Source of the DNA: Arcuatula senhousia | Lineage: Eukaryota; Mollusca; Bivalvia; Mytilida; Mytilidae | Assembly (NCBI GenBank): GCA_963971305.1 | Contig: OZ020317.1 | Coordinates: 18,804,001-18,868,000 of the forward strand | Direction: 5' to 3' | DNA: 64,000 bases | In this document: piece after piece, positions 2,961 through 33,160 of the stretch | Numbering within the stretch: position 1 is the first letter of the stretch | Layout of the letters: each line of letters starts with the position of its first letter | Translations under genes and position numbers: made by a program | The notes under the pieces: model-generated | Seen by the model: only the letters and a program-made list of their open reading frames with translations | What the model was told of the DNA's origin: nothing | Databases searched by the model: none

Positions 2961-3388
2961 CAAAGGAACAAACTCGCCAAAGGTCATTGCCAATTAATAA
3001 TTTTATGAAGTCATGGTGTTCGTAGTATGTCATTACGTTTAGACAAAAGGATGTTTCATATGCTATGTCGTGGATTTTTCCAAACCATTGCTATTTAACA
3101 GGTGTGATGATATAAATGATAACTTATAGAGAACAAGCCTAATTAAACGTTCTTTTGGGGGAATAATTATATTCAAATATGGCATAACAGCTAGTTACTT
3201 GAAGAAATTCTTCATCAAAAAAAGTCCAAAATTCTTATGTTAATATATGTACATTCAATTTCGTTTAGAGGTTAAATGTCTGAATGTATTTTTGTGGCAT
3301 TTACGTGACATCATGTGCGTTTTGTTTTATTAAATTGAATGCAACTATTGAAAATACAAATGACAACAAAGTTCCAGACAAAACATTT

Positions 3389-3440
3389 GCTACGCCTGAC
3401 GCGCGTTTCGTCTATTCAAGACTCATCAGAGGCGCTCTAC
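3389..3440 (-). ncRNA. Type I hammerhead ribozyme, array copy 1
   Basis: On the minus strand: stem I strand GCGCCT, then CTGATGA, stem II GTCT/AGAC with loop TGAAT, GAAA, a very short self-complementary helix III (ACGCGCGT), cleavage triplet GTC, and the returning stem I strand AGGCGT. All conserved core nucleotides are present. Cleavage is predicted after the C complementary to position 3398. A helix III this short usually implies low activity as a monomer and better activity as a dimer. Confidence 0.85.
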
Positions 3441-3745
3441 CAAACATATTGAAAATGCCAAACACTGTATGAATATGAAGAGCATAGAACAGTATAACAA
3501 AAAATACCAAACTGGGGAACCAAATTATTACTAAGATATTCAACCTATCTTTGGGGTAGGAAGAACCTTAGGGTTTAGACAATTTTGAAAATAAGACGGA
3601 TAATTTAAAGCTTTGATGTATTCTCCAACTCAAAAGTGTTGGTGCCGGAGCGGGCTAACCTCGGGGAATTTAAACTCCACCAGCAGTGCTAACCTTCACG
3701 TGTGTTCGAAATACAAATGACAACAAAGTTCCAGACAAAAAACTT

Positions 3746-3797
3746 GCTACGCTTGACGCGCGTTTCGTCTATTCAAGACTCATCAGAGGCGCTCTAC
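3746..3797 (-). ncRNA. Type I hammerhead ribozyme, array copy 2
   Basis: Same core and stem II as copy 1 on the minus strand. The returning stem I strand is AAGCG rather than AGGCG, which puts one C-A mismatch next to the cleavage site. The cleavage triplet is GTC. Confidence 0.8.
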
Positions 3798-4102
3798 CAA
3801 AAATATTGAAAATGCCAAACACTGTATGAATATGAAGGGGATAGAACAGTATAACCAAAAATACCAAACTGGGGAACCAAATTATTTCTAAGATATTCAA
3901 CCTATGTCTGGGGTAGGAAGAACCTTAGGGTTTAAGCAATTTTGAAAATAAGACGGATAATTAAAAGCTTTGATGTATTCTCCAACTCAAAAGTGTTGGT
4001 GCCGGAGCGGGCTAACCTCGGGGAATTTAAACTCCACCAGCAGTGCTAACCTTCACGTGTGTTCGAAATACAAATGACAACAAAGTTCCAGACAAATTAC
4101 TT

Positions 4103-4154
4103 GCTACGCTTGACGCGCGTTTCGTCTATTCAAGACTCATCAGAGGCGCTCTAC
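4103..4154 (-). ncRNA. Type I hammerhead ribozyme, array copy 3
   Basis: Identical in core and stems to copy 2, including the stem I C-A mismatch. The cleavage triplet is GTC. Confidence 0.8.
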
Positions 4155-4466
4155 CAAAAATATTGAAAATGCCAAACACTGTATGAATATGAAGAGGATA
4201 GAACAGTATAACCATAAATACCAAACTGGGGAACCAAATTATTACTAAGATATTCAACCTATGTCTTGGGTAGGAAGAACCTTAGAGTTTAGACAATTTT
4301 GAAAATACATTGTAAGACGGATAATTTAAAGCTTTGATGTATTCTCCAACTCAAAAGTGTTTGTGCCGGAGCGGGCTAACCTCGGGGAATTTAAACTCCA
4401 CCAGCAGTGCTAACCTTCACGTGTGTTCGAAATACAAATGACAACAAAGTTCCAGACAAAAAATTT

Positions 4467-4518
4467 GCTACGCCTTACGCGCGTTTCGTCTATTCAAGAC
4501 TCATCAGAGGCGCTCTAC
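4467..4518 (-). ncRNA. Type I hammerhead ribozyme, array copy 4 (GTA triplet)
   Basis: Core CTGATGA and GAAA and stem II are intact. Stem I is fully paired (GCGCCT/AGGCG) as in copy 1, but the cleavage triplet reads GTA instead of GTC. GTA is an allowed NUH triplet, usually slower than GUC. Confidence 0.75.
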
Positions 4519-4808
4519 CAAAAATATTGAAAATGCCAAACACTGTATGAATATGAAGAGGATAGAACAGTATAACCATAAATACCAAACTGGGGAACCA
4601 AATTATTACTAAGATATTAAACCTTTTTCTGGGGTAGGAAGAACCTTAGAGTTTAGACAATTTTGAAAATACATTGTAAGACGGATAATTTAAAGCTTTG
4701 ATGTATTCTCCAACTCAAAAGTGTTTGTGCCGGAGCGGGCTTACCTCGGGGAATTTAAACTCCACCAGCAGTGCTAACCTACACGTGTGTTCGAAATACA
4801 AATAACAA

Positions 4809-4846
4809 CAAAGTTCCAGACAAAAAAAAAATTGTCTGGAACTTTG
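4809..4846. repeat. 15-bp perfect inverted repeat closing the array
   Basis: CAAAGTTCCAGACAA (4809-4823) is followed after 8 A-rich bases by its exact reverse complement (4832-4846). The left arm is the start of a fifth repeat unit; the right arm is the same sequence inverted. The array therefore ends in a hairpin. Confidence 0.85.
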
Positions 4847-8753: not shown

Positions 8754-8854
8754 AACACTTTAATGTAACTTATTAATTTGTGCTGAACACTTTAATGTAA
8801 CTTATTTATTTGTGCTGATTAGTGTAATACAAATTACAACAAAGTTCCAGACAA
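8754..8854 (+). repeat. 36-bp tandem duplication next to a lone retrozyme-1 end motif
   Basis: AACACTTTAATGTAACTTAT plus the following ~16 bases occurs twice in tandem (8754-8821). Immediately after, at 8826-8854, is a 29-bp stretch AATACAAATTACAACAAAG...TTCCAGACAA. It matches the unit-boundary sequence of the 3351-4823 array but carries no ribozyme. Confidence 0.6.
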
Positions 8855-9279
8855 TAAAGCTATCAGTTCTGTTCTTATGGAAAAAAATCCCACGACATCA
8901 GCTCTGATAAAACGTTTAGTGCCGTGTTATATCTCTTCGATAATTCAATTAGACCTATTATATTATTCGATCCATACTTACCCTTTCATCTTTCTTTATC
9001 TACGATTTTATTGTTTTCAATTTGGATTAAGCGATAAAATTATATTTGAGTCTCTTAAATGATCTTATGATTTTTAATTTTAGCATCCGTCGATCAAAGG
9101 AAAAATTACATGACAATTTTTTACAGGTTTGTGATATAAAAGAAATATATATTTAGGTTAAATCCTTATATGATCATATAATTATCTAAAGTTTAAAAAG
9201 CTTCCTAATGTCATGAATGTATTACATATTAAATATTGCGTCTCATTATTTGATTATTGGATTTGAATTATATGCATTT

Positions 9280-15338: not shown

Positions 15339-15523
15339 TACAGATGGGCCCAAACCTAACCTGTACAAAAGTGAACCGGGAGCAAACATCTAGTTTACTT
15401 TTCTGGTTTGGTTTGCTTAACCAAACAAAATAGCAAACCACAGTTTACTCAAAACCAACCGTGGTTTGCTTTTTATAGTTTGGTTTGGTTTTAAAAGCAA
15501 ACCAAACCAAACCAAACCAGGCG

Positions 15524-15671
15524 GCTGGTTTGGTTTGCTCTGACCAAACCAAACTTTGACGCTGGGTTGGTTTGCTCTGACCAAACCAAACTCGGGTGCT
15601 AGATTGGTTTGCTCTGACCAAACCAGAATAGGGTGCTGGTTTGGTTTACTCTTACCAAACCAATCTAAAAT
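15524..15671. repeat. 4 x 37-bp tandem repeat, each unit palindromic
   Basis: Units start at 15524, 15561, 15598 and 15635, exactly 37 bp apart. Each contains TTGGTTTGCTCTGACCAAAC or a close variant, in which GGTTTGGTTT pairs with AACCAAACC around a short centre. They lie inside the foldback MITE. AAACCAAACC words also flank it at 15450-15520 and 19295-19430. Confidence 0.8.
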
Positions 15672-15773: not shown

Positions 15774-15911
15774 GATTAATAAATGTTGTGGTGTGGCAAG
15801 TTAAAATGGAGACAATAAAATAAGTAGGTTGGTTAAACCACACATAAAAGGTAAAAATATCAAATATAAAACTAATATAAATTAATAAAGAATACATCTA
15901 AAATCTAAAAA

Positions 15912-15946
15912 GCCCAAATATTCGGCTTTCAGCCTTCGTCGGGGGC
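15912..15946 (-). ncRNA. Hammerhead-like fold in retroelement 3' end (non-canonical), left copy
   Basis: Minus strand: GCCC, CCGACGA, then GGCT/AGCC stem, GAA, a short AT helix, and GGGC pairing with GCCC. The layout mimics a hammerhead, but CTGATGA is replaced by CCGACGA and there is an extra A before stem II. Probably not catalytic. The same sequence is at 19125-19159 on plus. Confidence 0.3.
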
Positions 15947-16084: not shown

Positions 16085-18232
16085 TCATACCCAAAGAATC
16101 AAATTAAGTAAATTACTAAGAAATGATTTGATGCCGAAAGGACGTGCTGTTCCCAGGAATTTTATTATTCTCTGCTCAAGGAACTGTCTTTGTTTCTCGC
16201 CGTGATGGGTTTGAAGCAGAACCGTGACTTGCATATCTTTTATACTTTGGCCGGACCCTCGGAAATGCTCCCCAACTGGACATTCAGTATCTCTGGTGAC
16301 ACTGTTTTTGTGTTCCACAAAACGGTCCCCGAGTCTCCGACAAGTTTCACCAACATAAATCATGGAACATCGCTTACATCTTATAGCGTATACGACGTTT
16401 TCGGTAATGCAGGTGAACCCATCCTTCAGTTGGAAAGTTTTCGAGGGACCAACCACAGCATCGGTCTCACATGTGAACGGACAAGTAGAGCAGCAAGTTC
16501 TTTTACAAGGACGTGTACCTTTGTAGCTGGCGGGTTGACGTGACGACCTATACGAACTGCTGACCAGGTGGTGTTTAAGACTCTTGCCCTTTCTAAAAGC
16601 CGTAATAGGGGTAGAGTCAGCAAAAACAGTGGACATATACTCATCTTTGAGGACAATGGATTTAAAGTTGCGAATAAGGATGTTCTGGATGGCAACATTG
16701 TGAGGGTGATAAGTAAGGACTAACGGAACACGATCATTGGTGCTCTTCACCCGGGGCTCCATTGCCTTGCGTCTGTTCACAAGGGAAACCGAGGACACGG
16801 CCCTGTCCAAGACTTTGTCAGGATAACCTCTCTTCGTGAAGAAAGATCTCATCTTGTTACACTGGATCCCAAAATCCTTATCGTCATTGCAGATACGACG
16901 AAGCCTCAGAAACTGCGACTTCGGGATGGCGTCTTTGCAGGAGGAAGGATGACAGGATTCGTAATTCAGATAACAATGAGCATCGGTAGGTTTAAAGAAC
17001 ACCGATGTAGAGATCTTACCGTCTGTGATAGTACAGTTAATGTCAAGGAATGAGAGGCTATCCTGAGTGATGTTGAAAGTGTATTTGATTGCAGGGTGGT
17101 AGGAAGAGACAAAGTTGATAAAAGATTTCAACTCCTCTTCACTGTCGGACGAGACTCCAAATACATCATCGATGAACCGTTTGTAAAGTTCCGGGACTGG
17201 ACCGATGTATTCGGAGAACATTTTTTCCTCTAAATACCCTACAAACAAACACGCAAAACTTGGACCCATTTTGGTGCCCATGGCTACGCCACCCGATTGG
17301 TTGTAGAACTTCCCATCGAACTGAAAAGTATTCAGGTTGAGGACAAGTTCCGCCATTCTCAACACTATATCAGTACTGATGTGAGGATTGGGTCTCCTGT
17401 CCAAAAAGTGTTTTAAAGCTACCAAGGCGTCATTGTTGGTTATGCTGGTGTATAAAGCAGTGACATCCATAGTAAACAGTCTGAAATCGGAGTTTTCTGG
17501 CTCAAAGAACTCAAGGATATTCAGAGCGTGGGTAGTGTCCTTAATGTATGTAGGTAGGTTCTCCACAATAGGAATGAAAATATCGTGGAGGAAACTGGAA
17601 ATGTGTTCTGTGGGACAACTACACGCTGAAACGATCGGCCTACCTGGGTTACCAAGTTTGTGTATCTTGGGAAGCATATAGAAACGAGACGTTCTCGGTT
17701 GCGATACTACAAGACGCGATGCTTCCTCGGGCAGATCGTCGTTCTCTATGGATGTCTTGATGAAGTCTTGGACAGATTTTTGGTTGATTTTGGTGTTGTT
17801 AGAGCGAAGTTCTGTGTAAAATTGAGAGTCAGACAATTGAAACTCGCCCTCAGAGACATAACAACGAGCGTCCCACGTTACAACTGCACCACCTTTATCA
17901 GCAGGTTTGATGACAATATCGCTGCGTGTTCTGAGTTGGTGAAGCGCGGCACGTTCATCAGATGTAAGGTTATGTCTCTTGAGCGGTTTCGTATCTAGGC
18001 TGTCAATCTGACTTTGGCAGGTTCGGAAGTAATCTTGAAGGATCGGAAATAAAGACGCCTTGGGGGTAAAATTTGATTTTTTCTTAATGAATTTACTAAA
18101 TAGTGAAGAAGCTTGATTAGAAGAATCAGAACTCTCTGTTTCTTTATCATGGAAAAAAGCTTTGAGTAAGAGGCGGCGGAAAAAATGTTGTATATCAGTC
18201 TCATTTTGAAACTGATCTGCTACGAAGAGATG
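16085..18232 (-). CDS. Penelope-like reverse transcriptase / GIY-YIG endonuclease (no start codon seen)
   Basis: The frame is open from just after a TAA near 18233 to a TGA at 16085-16087, about 715 codons. No in-frame ATG lies upstream of the RT domain, so the true 5' end is missing or spliced. N-terminal landmarks are DERAALHQLRTRSDIVIKPA followed by DKGG (17879-17909). In the last 583 codons (17836-16085) are LPKIHK (55-60), RT motif A MDVTALYTSI with D124, motif B GVAMGTKMGPSFA (183-195), motif C FIDDVF (221-226), a Cys-rich linker CKRTCCSTCPFTC (444-456), and a GIY-YIG endonuclease (VVYAI 481-485, YVG 494-496, R501, E554). The RT copies element RNA; the endonuclease nicks target DNA. This architecture is specific to endonuclease-containing Penelope-like elements. 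All RT catalytic Asp residues are present. No frameshift was seen, so it may still be active apart from the 5' end. Confidence 0.85.
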   Translation of the reverse strand, partial: HLFVADQFQNETDIQHFFRRLLLKAFFHDKETESSDSSNQASSLFSKFIKKKSNFTPKASLFPILQDYFRTCQSQIDSLDTKPLKRHNLTSDERAALHQLRTRSDIVIKPADKGGAVVTWDARCYVSEGEFQLSDSQFYTELRSNNTKINQKSVQDFIKTSIENDDLPEEASRLVVSQPRTSRFYMLPKIHKLGNPGRPIVSACSCPTEHISSFLHDIFIPIVENLPTYIKDTTHALNILEFFEPENSDFRLFTMDVTALYTSITNNDALVALKHFLDRRPNPHISTDIVLRMAELVLNLNTFQFDGKFYNQSGGVAMGTKMGPSFACLFVGYLEEKMFSEYIGPVPELYKRFIDDVFGVSSDSEEELKSFINFVSSYHPAIKYTFNITQDSLSFLDINCTITDGKISTSVFFKPTDAHCYLNYESCHPSSCKDAIPKSQFLRLRRICNDDKDFGIQCNKMRSFFTKRGYPDKVLDRAVSSVSLVNRRKAMEPRVKSTNDRVPLVLTYHPHNVAIQNILIRNFKSIVLKDEYMSTVFADSTPITAFRKGKSLKHHLVSSSYRSSRQPASYKGTRPCKRTCCSTCPFTCETDAVVGPSKTFQLKDGFTCITENVVYAIRCKRCSMIYVGETCRRLGDRFVEHKNSVTRDTECPVGEHFRGSGQSIKDMQVTVLLQTHHGEKQRQFLEQRIIKFLGTARPFGIKSFLSNLLNLILWV

Positions 18233-18956
18233 TTATCCTGACAAAGTCTTGGACAGGGCCGTGTCCTCGGTTTCCCGTGTGAACAGACGCGAGGCAATGG
18301 AGCCCCGGGTGAAGAGCACCAATGATCGTGTTCCGTTAGTCCTTACTTATCACCCTCACAATGTTGCCATCCAGAACATCCTTATTCGCAACTTTAAATC
18401 CATTGTCCTCAAAGATGAGTATATGTCCACTGTTTTTGCTGACTCTACCCCTATTACGGCTTTTAGAAAGGGCAAGAGTCTTAAACACCACCTGGTCAGC
18501 AGTTCGTATAGGTCGTCACGTCAACCCGCCAGCTACAAAGGTACACGTCCTTGTAAAAGAACTCGCTGCTCTACTTGTCCGTTCACATGGGAGACCGATC
18601 CTGTGGTTGGTCCCTCGAAAACTTTCCAACTGAAGGATGGGTTCACCTGCATTACCGAAAACGTCGTATACGCTATAAGATGTAAGCGATGTTCCATGAT
18701 TTATGTTGGTGAAACTTGTCGGAGACTCGGGGACCGTTTTGTGGAACACAAAAACAGTGTCACCAGAGATACTGAATGTCCAGTTGGGGAGCATTTTCGA
18801 GGGTCCGGCCACAGTATAAAAGATATGCAAGTCACGGTTCTGCTTCAAACCCATCACGGCGAGAAACAAAGACAGTTCCTTGAGCAGAGAATAATAAAAT
18901 TCCTGGGAACAGCACGTCCTTTCGGCATCAATGTCAAAAATCAAATCATTTCTTAG
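18222..18956 (+). pseudogene. Inverted partial copy of the Penelope-like ORF (C-terminal third)
   Basis: Open from about 18222. It repeats the last ~235 residues of the minus-strand ORF almost exactly (DRAVSSVSRVNRREAMEPRV, Cys-rich linker, GIY-YIG with VVYAI and YVG), but has no RT domain. It differs by scattered substitutions (CKRTRCSTCPFTWET against CKRTCCSTCPFTCET) and a 13-bp insertion near the end. The insertion shifts the frame and changes the C-terminus to INVKNQIIS. With no upstream RT it is a dead-end fragment. The apparent start at 18249 is TTG, not a real start. Confidence 0.85.
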
Positions 18957-19124: not shown

Positions 19125-19159
19125 GCCCCCGACGAAGGCTGAAAGCCGAAAATTTGGGC
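19125..19159 (+). ncRNA. Hammerhead-like fold in retroelement 3' end (non-canonical), right copy
   Basis: Plus-strand counterpart of 15912-15946: GCCC (19125-19128), CCGACGA (19129-19135), extra A, GGCT-GAA-AGCC, GAA, AATT, T, GGGC (19156-19159). Core deviations are the same as in the left copy, so they belong to the family and not to one decayed copy. Confidence 0.3.
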
Positions 19160-19444
19160 TTTTTAGATTTTAGATGTATTCTTTATTAATTTATATTAGT
19201 TTTATATTTGATATTTTTACCTTTTATGTGTGGTTTAACCAACCTACTTATTTTATTTCAATTCTTTGAATCATCTGCGCATGCTCATGGTTTGCTAAGA
19301 ACAAACCAAACCAGCCGTCTGGTTTACTTTTCGAGTAAAAATTAAAGTAAACTTTGAAACAAAGTAAAAAATGAACTAAGACCAAACTTCTGGTTTGCTT
19401 TTTTTTAGTTTGGTTTGCATACAGGTTAGGTTTGGACCCATCTG

Positions 19445-19910
19445 TAATAGTTGAATACGAGGAACAATATAATGTTTTCAAATCATCGTATTTTTTTGTA
19501 TATAGTTAAGTAGTACTCCACCTAAGAATCATGCAAAATTGAAGAAAAGTGATTCATTGAAAAAAAGGCTACAGTGGTTTATTTTTAACAAAAGATAGTT
19601 CAAAGTATACAAAATAAGAAATAAATAACAATTTGCTCATAACTGTCTGGTCCTGGGAGAAATCTTGCCATTTTGTTACAATGATTTCTATTGAAATTAT
19701 TGACAATTTTAAGAGTTATCTCCCTTTCTTACAATTTTCCAATGCGTTCTATATATTTTTTTTCTCTCAGGACCAACGCTTGTTTGGAAAAAGAGTACAA
19801 AATATTGAATCAGGGTGCTAGTAGGAGTAACATATCACAAATAAAGTGGTGTAGGCTTTCCACCCATGAATCGCTTTTTGCATGGTTTTTATAAAAAGTG
19901 GTACCTAAGC
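19445..19910. other. AT-rich stretch, nothing recognised
   Basis: Overlapping short open frames at 19633-19894 have no domain signature. Confidence 0.4.
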
Positions 19911-24320: not shown

Positions 24321-24523
24321 ATAAAATTTTTACATATGTTATCTAAAACCTATATAATCAATATGTCTGGTTAGTGTTAACAGTAGTTTTTTATTGAATA
24401 AACATGAATATTATGTAGTGTGAAAAATATTCATATTTATACAATAAAAAACTACTGTTAACACTAACCAGACATATTGATTATATAGGTTTTAGATTAC
24501 ATATGTAAAAATTTAATTACACA
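24315..24523. repeat. 209-bp near-perfect hairpin (82-bp arms)
   Basis: The left arm runs from TGTGTAATAAAATTTTTACA through 'ctggttagtgttaacagtag' to TTTTTTATTG (24315 to ~24398). The right arm is its reverse complement, ending TTAATTACACA at 24523. The ~45-bp centre also contains ATGAATAT/ATATTCAT. The arms differ at only a few positions. It abuts the end of the preceding RT relic. Likely a foldback or MITE copy. Confidence 0.8.
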
Positions 24524-28100: not shown

Positions 28101-30342
28101 ATGTACAATTTAGTTCAATGGTAATAACCCCATCTATAAGTATATCAAAGTGGTAATCAAACATAATTATACCAAAAAGACAAAGACAAATCGGTAGAAA
28201 AAAAATCATCAAAACAAAACAAAGCAAACAACAACAACACAACAAAAAACACACACATAACAAACAAAACCATATTCAGCAACGTGAACTCATGTCGAAA
28301 CGGAAGAGGGGACAGTTTCTGCTTGCTATAGAACACCTGTCACATTGTCAAACATCGATTTAGTATTGGTCAAACCCGAAAAGGATGGCATTACTAAACT
28401 TATGACAAACCAACATTTGTGCTCATCTCAGAGATAAAATTCCCGAATTTGTTAACATTCCATCAAATATCTTGAATTATGACAACAACCTGGGAGCACA
28501 TACCCATGTGTTTACAATGTGTTTTACAGTCGTGTATACGTAGTTCTATCAAGGAAGTCGTTATGCTCATCACATGCTCTGGAATAACGATTCCATTGTA
28601 ATGCGTAAACTCCATATGCTGGAGCTGACAGAAGGCAAGGTTGCCTTCTGGAAAGGCATCATGTTTGTCATAGAGCTTTATAAAAAGCATTCCTAGTGAC
28701 TGTCAATTTCGAGAAATTAATAAAAGAGGAAATGGATCTCCTAGAATCTATAGTGTCGTTAATCTCAAGTTTCCATGGATATATAAGATGTAAACAGTCA
28801 CCAATTCGAGGACTGTCGAGTGAAAGGACAACATCAATAAAACGAAATCTTTCACTAATTTTTAATAATAACAACTTTTAAAAAAAAGTATTCATGAGAA
28901 ATTAATTCGATAAAAACTATGTCCGAATTTTATTCCTTTACTTACCTATTGATAGGTCTATAAACAGCATTTATGACATTATACGTTTGGAGCGGTAGCC
29001 AACAGAAGGCAAATAGACAGGTAACTGTGATCAACATCTTAACTACCTGAAGAAAAAAAACCACAAACATAATGGTTAGCGTTACATTGATAATAGCATG
29101 ATATTCAAATAAAACAAATTTAATCTGAAACAATGATTTGTATATAAAGTATTAAATTTCACTATAGAAAACAACAGACGTAAGCGTACAATATAGAATT
29201 CAACGTTTGGGACGTCACCAACTATAAACCAAATTTAAAGCAAGGTGTTGGTGTTCGGTATACAAGATAAGAAAATGGTTATTGCATGGATATTGTGGAA
29301 GTTTGTTTCTTGTAGAAAAATTATTGCACTTGTAAACTCGTGTGATTTAAATTCTACTTGAGACAGTTTTCGTGTCTTTGTATTCAGTAAGGTTATTTCT
29401 TCCAAGACACCTATTTATACTGGTTAATGCCTGTTACTCGCTTATTAAACTTCAGGGAAAATTCAATAGTGCTAAAAAACTAATAAACTATGTTTGTTAA
29501 AATACTCAAAATCTACAGACACAACAAATAGAAAATAAAAAAGTTATTTGTTTAATGCAGCTTACTTTTTTCTTGTGGCCAGTCCGAGAACGATGACATC
29601 TTCCAATTTGAGATCCCGATTTAACTCCTCCCCAAATGTTGCAACCAATTCGAAAATAACACAAACTGATAATTATTAACGGTACAAAATATTGCAACAA
29701 AAACAGGTACAGGAAATATACAGTAGCAAACGTCTTCGATGGCCATTTTGAATCACACACAGGTCTTTCTGTCCATGAAATTACGTCAAATAAAATTTTA
29801 ACATCAAAGAAAATGAGATCTGGCAGGCTTGATGCAATTCCAATAACCCAAATAACCATGATAACAAAAACAGCAATACGTTTTCGGAACCCAGCTTTGA
29901 AAGGGTAGATAACTGCTACATAGCGATCTATTGCTATAACTGTGAGCGTTAGTATACTTATATTCACCGAAAGATTCTTAACAAACGGTGCTATTTTACA
30001 CATTGCATCTGCTGCTATCCAACGCTGCAGTACAGCAGTGTGAAATTGAAACGGGATACTAAATAACGCTATAGCCACATCTGCTATTGCCATGTTAGCA
30101 ATGAAAAAGTTTGTAACGGTCCGCATTGCCTGAATTCGCAACACTACAAAAATAACTAAAGCGTTTCCAATGATAGCTAGTAATGATACAGTTCCATAGA
30201 GAAAAATAAGTAGAACTAATATTTCTGTCGAGACTTTTACCAGCAATGGTGATACAGTATTATTAGCAAAGTATCTTTCAAAATCTGTAATGTTAATTCC
30301 TGAAAAATCATATAAGCTTTCCAAATCTTGAAGTCTATTCAT
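24881..30342 (-). CDS. Rhodopsin-class neuropeptide GPCR, leucokinin/lymnokinin-receptor-like, four exons
   Basis: Joined coding exons (minus): 30342-29566, 29046-28946, 27273-27183, 25108-24881, giving 398 residues. All introns are GT-AG with pyrimidine-rich acceptors, and phases fit (0, 2, 0). TM1 has N60; TM2 NMAIAD has D88; C115 and C196 form the conserved extracellular disulphide. DRY is at 139-141, W165 in TM4, P221 and Y229 in TM5, CWLP at 274-277 in TM6, NPFIY at 315-319 in TM7. N-glycosylation sites are N17 and N27. The C-tail is Lys/Ser-rich with a Cys cluster (FKCRSDCKC) suited to palmitoylation. FQFHTAVLQRW, NLSVNISILTLTVIAIDRY and WLAMSNSCYNPFIYGLLN resemble leucokinin-type receptors; tachykinin- or RYamide-type is possible. 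It is a plasma-membrane, G-protein-coupled receptor. The start is the first ATG, 38 residues before TM1. Upstream non-coding exons were not found. Confidence 0.9.
25163..26005 (+). mobile_element. Decayed, internally deleted Tc1-like transposon in GPCR intron 3
   Basis: Terminal inverted repeats: the left end TACTGAGTGACATTAAAAAC and the right end, reverse-complemented, TACTGAGTTACAATGAAAAC, flanked by TA on both sides (25161-25162, 26006-26007). A plus-strand transposase N-terminus starts at 25468 with MPRLSDNQRHEVLAMVQGGI and a helix-turn-helix (SWRKIARRMN), then a stop. After a large deletion, C-terminal Tc1-type sequence (LQEE, IPQEPIRRFIR, ENGGNIRF) follows with TGA codons where Trp is usual. 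The DDE catalytic region is absent, so it is non-autonomous. Inserted antisense to the receptor. The minus-strand ORFs here are shadows. Confidence 0.75.
26033..26173. repeat. Cluster of CAGTAAATACGTGTATTTACTG-type palindromes
   Basis: CAGTAAAT(A/T)(C)GTG(T/A)ATTTACTG-like words occur at about 26030-26050, 26069-26092, 26118-26140 and 26155-26170, in both orientations. They lie just downstream of the Tc1-like element, in intron 3. Probably a foldback repeat. Confidence 0.6.
27183..27273 (-). CDS. GPCR exon 3: TM7
   Basis: 91 nt after the acceptor TTTTTCTGTTTCAG (to 27274). With the split codon it reads R FKYINIIWFCANWLAMSNS, then CYNPFIYGLLN, then donor GTAAGC (27182-27177). Contains NPxxY. 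Too short to appear as a long ORF, but splice sites and phase agree. Confidence 0.9.
27690..27910 (+). repeat. Irregular minisatellite in GPCR intron 2 (three units)
   Basis: Units of ~85, ~60 and ~85 bp share CATTAAAACATTAAA, 'gcaatttaaaatgaggtag', 'acctatgaaagctatctcgtgtag' and AAGTAT(A/G)CCATCAT. The middle unit lacks the 'acctatgaaagc' segment. Confidence 0.65.
28080..28880 (-). pseudogene. RT-family retroelement relic in GPCR intron 2
   Basis: Minus strand reads RFRFIDVVLSLDSPRIGDCL and HLIYPWKLEINDT, the degenerate YIDDVLSLNN...HLIYPxELEIKDT stretch around the RT catalytic motif. It continues as LYDKHDAF, a segment equivalent to PAYGVYxxxxIRYSRA after frameshifts, and the shared 3' tail (28080-28320). 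The second catalytic Asp is changed (IDVV). In the same orientation as the receptor. Confidence 0.65.
28946..29046 (-). CDS. GPCR exon 2: TM6
   Basis: 101 nt between an acceptor (TTTTTTTTCTTCAG, ending at 29047) and a donor GTAAGT (28945-28940). Encodes VVKMLITVTCLFAFCWLPLQ and TYNVINAVYRPIN plus two bases, that is TM6 with CWLP. Ends in phase 2, which fits the next exon. Confidence 0.9.
29566..30342 (-). CDS. GPCR exon 1: N-terminus to end of TM5 and third loop
   Basis: 259 codons from ATG (30342) to ...GHKKK, followed by the donor GTAAGC (29565-29560). Reading on into the intron gives 19 spurious codons before a stop. Contains TM1-TM5, the DRY motif and both disulphide cysteines. Ends in phase 0. 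Confidence 0.92.
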
Positions 30343-33160
30343 CCTGAGGCTGTTATGTTAGTCGTCGTAGAACGATGTGACTTTACATAAGTTTCCGTAT
30401 TCCAATCGAGTAAATATACGTTCAATGTGCCGTCTACAATTGTTTATTTATTTAAGACTGTTATTATTGCAATTTCAAATTTGATGAAATTCTCCCTTTT
30501 TAATTTTCCAACTTGAAATCTGTTCCCATTAGGTTTTCACATTAATTAAATAGAGAATGTTATGTTTTAAAAAAATATAATAATATAATATCCATATGTA
30601 ACATTATCACAAGTATTACATGTATGTATAAGAATGAATATAATAATTACTTCTTACGCATTCTAGTCTTGTTCCTAAACTAATTCTTCTGGAATAGCTT
30701 GACTCCTATATACGCTAGCATTATGAATCAATAAAGCTTGATGTAGAGTCTTTGATTGATACACAATAAGTTTAATTCGTATAAGATAACAAAGCTAAAT
30801 TAGTAGATAATAAATCCGCTTCATAAAAGGTGCCTTAATAAAATGTTCTATCCTTATCATACTTATTGAACAGACATCTTCTTAGAAAATAATGCGTGTG
30901 ACGATTTGGACATTAAAGGCATTTCTGATGATTTGAATGTATATATAGTTGTTTAATTCTTAATAGAATTTTCCTTTGTGAATACATTTAGACTGTTAAA
31001 AATAAGAAAAGATCATAAAATTGCAAGAAAAAAACGCACGGTCATAAATCTTGATGATAGCTTTAAGTGGCTTTACGTGACAAAACTTTTAAATATTACC
31101 CGTGATAATGAATAATACAAAGTAACGTGAATAATTGATAACAGTTTTATCAACTAATTGACAGATAAAAGTACATTTTAAGTTATTCATCTATAATTGC
31201 TAATGTTCAGCATTTATATAAAGATTCAAAAGTATAAAAAAAACAAGAAATAATTCCACTGCCATTCTTCCCGGTGTCCTTTATTTAATCTTCCGCACTA
31301 GAATTGGTTGCCATATGTTGGTTTTCACATTTTATTAAAAAGATGACTAGATTGTGAGAACCTGGGCTGCACGTATCATTTACTTTGTATGATATGTAAA
31401 CTGTTTTAAAAATGTTACGTGATAAACAAAAAAAAACATACGAATATCCCTATATAATGTTAAGTAATGTTATTATACATTTATCATCCGTAATTTGAAA
31501 AATAAGAATGTAAATATCACCCCCAAATTGCTTGTTATAATGTGTAAATTTGAAATTTTGCCATAACAAGTCTCTTTGTATAAAAAAACTATACAACAAA
31601 AATATACAAGAAAAATATCATTTGGCAACCTATAAAAAAATTACAGTCTTCCTATACATCATAATTATGTCCATCACAATGTGTTTCCATTAAACAAAAC
31701 TGAAAGTTGAAAAGTTATTTGTGTTAAGTTTATAATAACCACTACGGCATCAAACATGTTTAATGTGGTTCAATGTGAAAGCCAAAACACATCATAATGT
31801 CATGTAAGTGCATCACTGGAACTTTAACTAAGATGAAACATAAAGTTTTACACTATCTGAAAATTGTCTGTATTTTTAAAGATCATGACACTGGAACTTA
31901 CCATTCATTTTTCTTAACAGGAAGGAAATAGGTCTTTTCATGAGAATATATCACGTCAAAGAAAACAAAGATTTGCATTATAAAATGAATACTATTCTGT
32001 ATTTTTTTCATCAAAAGAGACTCCTTTAGACCATGTGACAATCATTTTTTATACAGTAATCACGATTGGGAATTCGTCTTGACCTATTGTACAAGATTAA
32101 ATGTGTGAATAATGGCTTTTAAGGCCAAACTAGATTTTTCTTTATATCGCTTGTACTTTTTTCCGTAACTTTGCACAAGGATTCAACGTTCAACTTAAAA
32201 CATATCACATTTAATCATCAGTGAAAGGTAAAAAGTCGAAAACATAATTTTCGTCTATATTTTTTTTACCGTAAGTCCTATTTCAAAGGCTATAAAGAAG
32301 TGTTGATATACCCAAAACGAGAACAAGATGTTTTTAGAGTATATTGAGGTTTATCTATTTATAAGATAAACATGTTTAATGAAAGCGAGATTAATAAATT
32401 TTCCATTCTTTCTCCGTAATTTACTATCCATATTTGTTCCGGGTTTTATAATTTTATTCACGAGTTGACATTGATGGACGAAGGAAACAAAATCCCTCCA
32501 TCCACTCCCTTTTCATCGTCCAACATTTTTGCTGCTGTTGTTTCTTTTTTTCTTTTCAGGCTCTTCAAATATAACAACAGGAGCTTCCAAGGATCTTACA
32601 ATGTGAGCTTAGAATAGACTTCATCGACAAATCTACAAATTTGCGGACGATGCAGTTTGAAATACACTTGGATTTTACAGAAATGTCCGTGTCAATGTTC
32701 ATTTTGCTAGTATTTGAATGACTTGTTTAAAATGCTACTTAATGTATATTTATTATTTTCTACCTGCATATAGCGAGTATACCAAATACAGACTTTTTAA
32801 AGTTCTAAGTTTTCAGTTTTCATTCAGTTTTTAATTATTTGTTGTGGTGTTTGTGTGTAAATGCTTAATTATTTTAATAAAAATATTTAATATGTTTGTC
32901 TCAATATTTATGCACCAAATTATTTGAGTCTTTAATTAATTAATTGTTTCTGAAAATTGTATTTAAAGACGAACAAAACTACCCTTATATTTTAGGTAAT
33001 GTTGATCGGAGAATTTAGAACTTTTATTTCTATGATATTAAACAGAGGCTGGTATTGTATGACTTTTTCTAAAAATATGAATCTGATTTGATATATATAA
33101 TACCAAAACGGAATAAAACGGGTAATTTGGTAATGCCAAGAACTTCAATTAAAAGTCACC
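30343..33160. other. Upstream flank of the GPCR, AT-rich, nothing recognised
   Basis: No TATA-plus-initiator arrangement, ORF or repeat could be assigned. The receptor promoter and any 5' UTR exon should lie here or beyond. Confidence 0.4.

Follow-up and report, generated by a model that had tools for sequence, protein, structure and literature searches.

How a short, non-coding sequence carrying a hammerhead ribozyme motif becomes inserted into a chromosome is the question raised by a tandem array in the genome of Arcuatula senhousia. The array is located in the first part of the window, i.e., the whole stretch of 64,000 nucleotides that was analyzed, and comprises, together with one isolated piece, the following features (unit positions are referred to as phases):

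3352-4827, minus strand: retrozyme array of approximately 4.1 units, with its sense 3' end at 3352
3352-3708: unit 1, 357 bp
3709-4065: unit 2, 357 bp
4066-4429: unit 3, 364 bp
4430-4793: unit 4, 364 bp
4794-4846: first 34 bp of a fifth unit (4794-4827), after which its own sequence recurs inverted (arms at 4809-4823 and 4832-4846)
3392-3435, minus strand: type I hammerhead of unit 1, 36.5 bits, E-value 1.6e-5, expected cut between 3398 and 3397
3749-3792, minus strand: type I hammerhead of unit 2, 32.0 bits, stem I with one C.A mismatch, cut expected after 3755
4106-4149, minus strand: type I hammerhead of unit 3, 32.0 bits, stem I with one C.A mismatch, cut expected after 4112
4470-4513, minus strand: type I hammerhead of unit 4, 30.1 bits, GUA at the cut site instead of GUC, last base before the cut 4476
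3352-3397, minus strand: the 46 nt that separate the cut from the constant sense 3' end
8826-8858, minus strand: isolated 33-bp piece, 94% match to unit phases 2-34

Tandem Repeats Finder reported a period of 357 with 4.1 copies, 96% matches and a score of 2625 for positions 3352-4827, and the four tandem units of 357-364 bp proposed in the original prediction were thus recovered, complemented by the 34 bp of a fifth unit. Units 1, 3 and 4 show 93.7-96.4% identity to unit 2, the GC content amounts to 37.9-39.8% per unit, and the longest stop-free stretch comprises 56 codons; no coding frame is present. Among the repeats listed, neither flanking direct repeats nor LTR-like repeats were found around the array. 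The inverted self-copy at the truncated end of the array perhaps arose by snap-back of the cDNA, and the piece at 8826-8858 is perhaps a strongly 5'-truncated retrozyme insertion.

Applying the covariance model for type I hammerheads (Rfam RF00163, curated cut-off 34 bits), which the original prediction had suggested as a check, a minus-strand match was obtained in all four units, as claimed there. Only the ribozyme of unit 1 exceeded the cut-off (E-value calculated over the 64-kb window), the other three, with the stem I mismatch in units 2 and 3 and GUA in unit 4, scoring below it. The cleavage position predicted for unit 1, after 3398, coincides with the last base before the cut in the model match. 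Considering the E-values and the occurrence of the same motif in many dispersed relatives within the same genome, these hammerheads are not chance matches. The sense (minus-strand) RNA probably cleaves itself once per unit. When the 76-nt region around each of the four ribozymes was folded, the minimum-energy structure contained all three stems in no case, that of unit 1 showing stem I and its outer continuation, and the linear full monomer was no more stable than shuffled sequences (z +0.68 for the sense strand and +0.44 for the plus strand).

By its sequence features, the array belongs to a known kind of element, namely the metazoan non-LTR retrozymes described from mussel (PMC7229834). Features characteristic of this group were found, i.e., a type I hammerhead in each unit, a non-coding unit within the range of approximately 170-400 bp with a GC content below 50%, dispersed short to long arrays, and Penelope-like elements in the host. 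As far as the description by Cervera and de la Pena (2020, PMC7229834) extends, the retrozyme of Mytilus galloprovincialis likewise carries a type I hammerhead in tandem units (350-390 bp there, 357-364 bp here), is low in GC (38-40% here) and occurs dispersed, alongside Penelope-like elements. For the Mytilus element, cleavage and circular RNA were demonstrated in that work, whereas the element described here is known from sequence alone; moreover, the Mytilus RNA is reported there as highly self-paired, in contrast to the linear monomer analyzed here, which does not exceed its shuffled versions in stability. Plant LTR retrozymes are similar in being non-autonomous, in carrying hammerheads and in their proposed circular RNA intermediate. 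However, as summarized in the same source (PMC7229834), they possess type III hammerheads, a length of approximately 700 bp, LTRs, 4-bp target duplications and a GC content above 55%; here, the hammerhead is of type I, the unit measures 357-364 bp at 38-40% GC, and neither a type III ribozyme nor LTRs were found.

The same hammerhead search applied to the genome of the window (1.036 Gb; 74 places scored of 145,145 candidates) placed 62 of the 64 matches listed above the cut-off, and none of 14 control genomes gave a match. Two patterns searched in viral contigs and one searched in prokaryote genomes gave no match. A set of 48 loci, representing 52 of the 64 listed places after the 12 lowest-scoring ones had been left out, contained the retrozyme unit without exception. 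Furthermore, the first 28 bases of the unit were matched exactly at 15,346 places genome-wide, and the reversed-pattern control gave no match. These starts follow CG in 9,243 cases, which are mostly internal joins judging by their spacing, a non-C base plus G in 2,682 cases, and A, C or T in 3,421 cases; the 6,103 starts that do not follow CG are not a count of insertions, since mutated internal joins are among them. Young copies, differing at 2-8 of 358 bases, were found at seven loci on five chromosomes. A second sample of ten further loci, picked from a DNA-similarity list and not by ribozyme, contained 25 ribozymes, all with an intact core and one with a stem I change that is also present in the window. 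The dispersed copies, their unrelated flanks, the fixed 3' end and the near-identity of some of them indicate that the family is mobile. The interpretation as a bivalve retrozyme put forward in the original prediction is supported for the features that can be tested by sequence.

The end at which these copies join the chromosome is not arbitrary. BLAST pieces from the 48 loci and the window were chained into 69 arrays, and the left (sense 3') end was visible in 65 of these. It lies at phase 1-3 in 51 arrays, approximately 0.5 being expected by chance, at phase 4-7 in five and elsewhere in nine, two of which (L047 and L002) look like pieces of interrupted copies. Within the second sample, seven of eight visible starts fall on phase 1 and one on phase 6. 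In the sense RNA, the predicted cut precedes phase 1 by 46 nt. The opposite (5') ends are scattered: in the 22 arrays exceeding 380 bp, their phases are compatible with a uniform distribution (P 0.77), and the same holds for 28 ends including the second sample (P 0.23). None of these 28 ends falls within phases 40-55 around the cut, where approximately 1.3 would be expected, and the missing pile-up is accordingly weak evidence. Pieces spanning phases 1-49 and 309-357 had also been considered as element ends and were dropped, as they are probably edges of the scoring windows of the similarity search.

Flanking sequences were evaluated for arrays that start at phase 1-3 and lie completely within their locus, leaving 49 after removal of two with duplicate flanks. 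The base at -1 is G in 27 of the 49 junctions compared to a background of 16.5% (P 8e-10) and in six of eight junctions of the second sample (P 4e-4); otherwise the flanks are near background, with A/T enriched only at -3. Concerning direct repeats anchored at the junctions, only L022 stands out (21 nt with one mismatch) and L001 does so more weakly, the remainder of the 49 behaving like permuted pairs.

Since the arrays are flanked at this end by arbitrary DNA, the constant sense 3' end must apparently be set by recognition inside the RNA. To produce an insertion of more than 46 nt, copying must have crossed the ribozyme junction, and the template was hence ligated or uncut; as the samples were picked for a ribozyme or a whole unit, the share of insertions crossing the junction is not a statistic. 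The junctions suggest that reverse transcription begins at an internal position that is always the same. The kind of element was already known, and the constant sense 3' end of retrozyme arrays is new here: in the literature searched (including passages of PMC7229834, PMC11167929, PMC7761336 and PMC11722881), no constant integration end was reported for animal retrozymes.

Based on these results, the array is proposed, with a probability of roughly 70%, to be a genomic copy of a metazoan non-LTR retrozyme whose circular or multimeric RNA is copied from a fixed internal site by a borrowed enzyme, likeliest of the Penelope class. The sense (minus-strand) RNA would cut itself once per unit, as the motif in each unit suggests and as shown in the literature for the mussel relative. 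The template of a borrowed reverse transcriptase would then be a ligated circle or an uncut multimer; copying would begin 46 nt past the cut and cross the ribozyme junction for a variable distance. The expected outcome would be a constant sense 3' end and a scattered 5' end, both of which were observed, and a unit number equal to the number of units read. Later exchange between units would alter some arrays, as indicated by period-2 and period-3 variant patterns between the units of L029 and L033, from which we infer unequal exchange. Points against this mechanism are the nine of 65 arrays beginning beyond phase 7, the monomer z-value of +0.68, the folds without all three stems, a target preference unlike that of the Penelope-like family of the window, and the finding that the 16-nt retrozyme end is shared by no other abundant sequence. 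A Penelope-class enzyme would be the likeliest mobilizer because such internal initiation is described for a Penelope-like element (PMC11167929). The shared fixed end is a clue to how retrozymes get into chromosomes. Moreover, it offers a direct assay: candidate enzymes can be compared for initiation at this base, and so can the different forms of retrozyme RNA as their template. The A. senhousia genome, with its many young copies, is a place for asking both questions.

A candidate of this enzyme class is encoded in the window itself:

16085-18232, minus strand: Penelope-like open frame, candidate mobilizer class, longer-type 3' end at 15774
18216-18956, plus strand: second Penelope-like copy, 5'-truncated and in inverted orientation, shorter-type 3' end at 19257
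15912-15946, minus strand: hammerhead-like motif of the Penelope-like element, recognized by eye, with a second copy at 19125-19159 (plus strand)

The two copies are joined 5' to 5' and share 97.8% identity over approximately 1 kb. A GIY-YIG domain was matched in both, scoring 21.6 bits (just under) and 24 bits (above) relative to the Pfam cut-off of 22.6. A region of the open frame which we take to be the reverse transcriptase was identified by eye from its motifs. Relatives were scored at 62 places of 10,325 candidates in the genome, most being 96-98% identical to the window protein and two only 73%. Among 39 Penelope-like 3' regions examined, 36 could be typed, with 25 ending at the same base and 11 ending variably around a point 40 nt earlier. 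Nine neighboring pairs in opposite orientation were found; both 3' ends were examined in six and typed in five, and all five carry one end of each type. The hammerhead-like motif precedes the commoner 3' end by 142 nt in the window and by 98 nt in the 73% subfamily; it shows two compensatory changes in stem II between the subfamilies as well as an extra A, the Rfam search calling no hammerhead at this motif. By sequence, the pair is young and carries hallmarks of PAc of Anolis (Frangieh et al. 2024, PMC11167929), whose purified protein initiates internally downstream of its hammerhead in vitro. The two end types resemble what is given there for PAc, namely a pair of start sites and a tail of 30-40 bp.

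Two side observations concern the surroundings of these elements. The pair is bracketed by two 25-nt sequences that are nearly perfect inverted copies of each other (15340-15364 and 19421-19445), and GGTTTGGTTTGC-type repeats lie between them (15506-15667), as would be seen after insertion into an element with inverted ends. Head-to-tail Penelope-like copies occur at L097 (G000:C8:17207500-17209400) and at G000:C933:2591-8393, the spacing in the latter being 3,706 bp.

As described for PAc (PMC11167929), the retrozyme would insert from a fixed internal site past a hammerhead, non-homologous to the target, and both are arranged in tandem. PAc, however, has its own enzyme, AT-rich targets and, by subtraction from the values given there, two start sites 85-92 nt past the cut, whereas the retrozyme is non-coding, begins mainly at a single site at a distance of 46 nt from the cut, and favors targets preceded by G. 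It contains no reverse transcriptase or GIY-YIG frame and thus is not itself a Penelope-like element. Target preference differs within the genome as well: the local Penelope-like family is flanked by AT-rich DNA beginning with T (23 of 29) and then A (24 of 29), in contrast to the G at -1 and the lack of AT-rich targets of the retrozyme. Except for short weak matches (best E-value 0.19), the retrozyme unit shows no homology to the Penelope-like region. The terminal 12-mers of both are alike at eight or nine of 12 bases, depending on the variant, compared to 1.0% of random window 12-mers matching the retrozyme end at ≥8 and 0.16% at ≥9 bases; the likeness is suggestive only, since the retrozyme 12-mer includes a final C that just 27 of the 49 junctions possess, and since the two ends have their richness in T in common. 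A LINE, or a different lineage of Penelope-like elements, is a possible mobilizer.

Mobilization by a LINE-type instead of a Penelope-like enzyme appears unlikely, albeit with appreciable weight. In its favor, G stands at -1 in 27 of 49 retrozyme junctions, unlike the AT-rich, TA-beginning targets of the Penelope-like family in this genome. A 3' tail is usually common to a LINE and the parasites that it mobilizes. The 16-nt retrozyme end followed by a different next base occurs at 246 places versus 41 in the control, approximately as expected from mutated retrozymes, so that no other abundant sequence possesses this end, which argues against a LINE partner. Furthermore, PMC11167929 describes fixed internal initiation unmatched to the target as a property of Penelope-like elements alone. 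An ordinary satellite, dispersed through unequal crossing-over or the reinsertion of DNA circles and with the ribozyme playing no role, would fit the long arrays (L011 to L014) and the periodic variants in L029 and L033, but with 51 of 65 starts at phase 1-3 against approximately 0.5 under random phases, and with unrelated flanks, this reading is very improbable and is disfavored as the means of dispersal.

Concerning the template of the proposed reverse transcription, an uncut multimeric transcript is a serious contender to the ligated circle, with chances somewhat short of even. Ribozyme mutants of PAc still insert in vitro (PMC11167929), and the window array is a mosaic of two monomer types, which would arise more easily from a mixed multimer or later exchange. 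On the other hand, private variants are repeated in both units at three of six young two-unit loci, as expected of one circular template, although a homogeneous source array would match equally well. A more far-reaching reading, which is held tentatively and as marginally less probable still, is that animal retrozymes parasitize Penelope-class enzymes that start on the ligated circle 46 nt past the junction; multi-unit insertions would then record passage of the junction, and the genome would mark circular RNA as the template. As for the mosaic, phases 36 and 46 carry variants common to units 2 and 3, whereas units 3 and 4 have a block at 151-291 in common. Read cut-to-cut, the monomers represent two types, arranged a, a, b, b. 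The switch lies between phases 46 and 151, possibly exactly at the cut-site joint, and the array looks like an older, mosaic retrozyme copy. Whatever the family does, this array itself may well be a dead copy too drifted for cutting or copying, a view we consider plausible without favoring it: the units have diverged by several per cent, stem I is mismatched in two, one carries a GUA site and three of four ribozymes score under the Rfam cut-off, yet unit 1 retains a complete core and stem I with a score above it.

Further observations were made on individual retrozyme loci. L011 and L012 (G000:C10:2690000-2706000) belong to a long array extending beyond both ends of the stretch examined, in which a deletion-bearing unit occurs again after 6,602 bp, a satellite-like higher-order structure. 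Arrays in opposite orientation with their 5' ends facing each other within approximately 1.5 kb were found at L022, L034, L041 and L045, which is commoner than sparse insertion suggests. At L047:1331-2548, the retrozyme is interrupted after phase 34 by approximately 785 bp with mutually inverted ends, apparently another transposon; the 34-nt piece at this locus, previously regarded as a solo fragment, is now considered part of a retrozyme split by this element.

Elsewhere in the window, positions 24357-24481 form a long hairpin on both strands, matched by plant-type microRNA models well under their cut-offs (56 of 101 bits), which is perhaps a small inverted-repeat element. Moreover, a Rhodopsin-type receptor gene fragment is located at 29506-30357, leucokinin-receptor-like by its named relatives; its closest named record originates from Mytilus coruscus (53%), followed by other molluscs, in keeping with a bivalve host, the top match overall reaching 61%.
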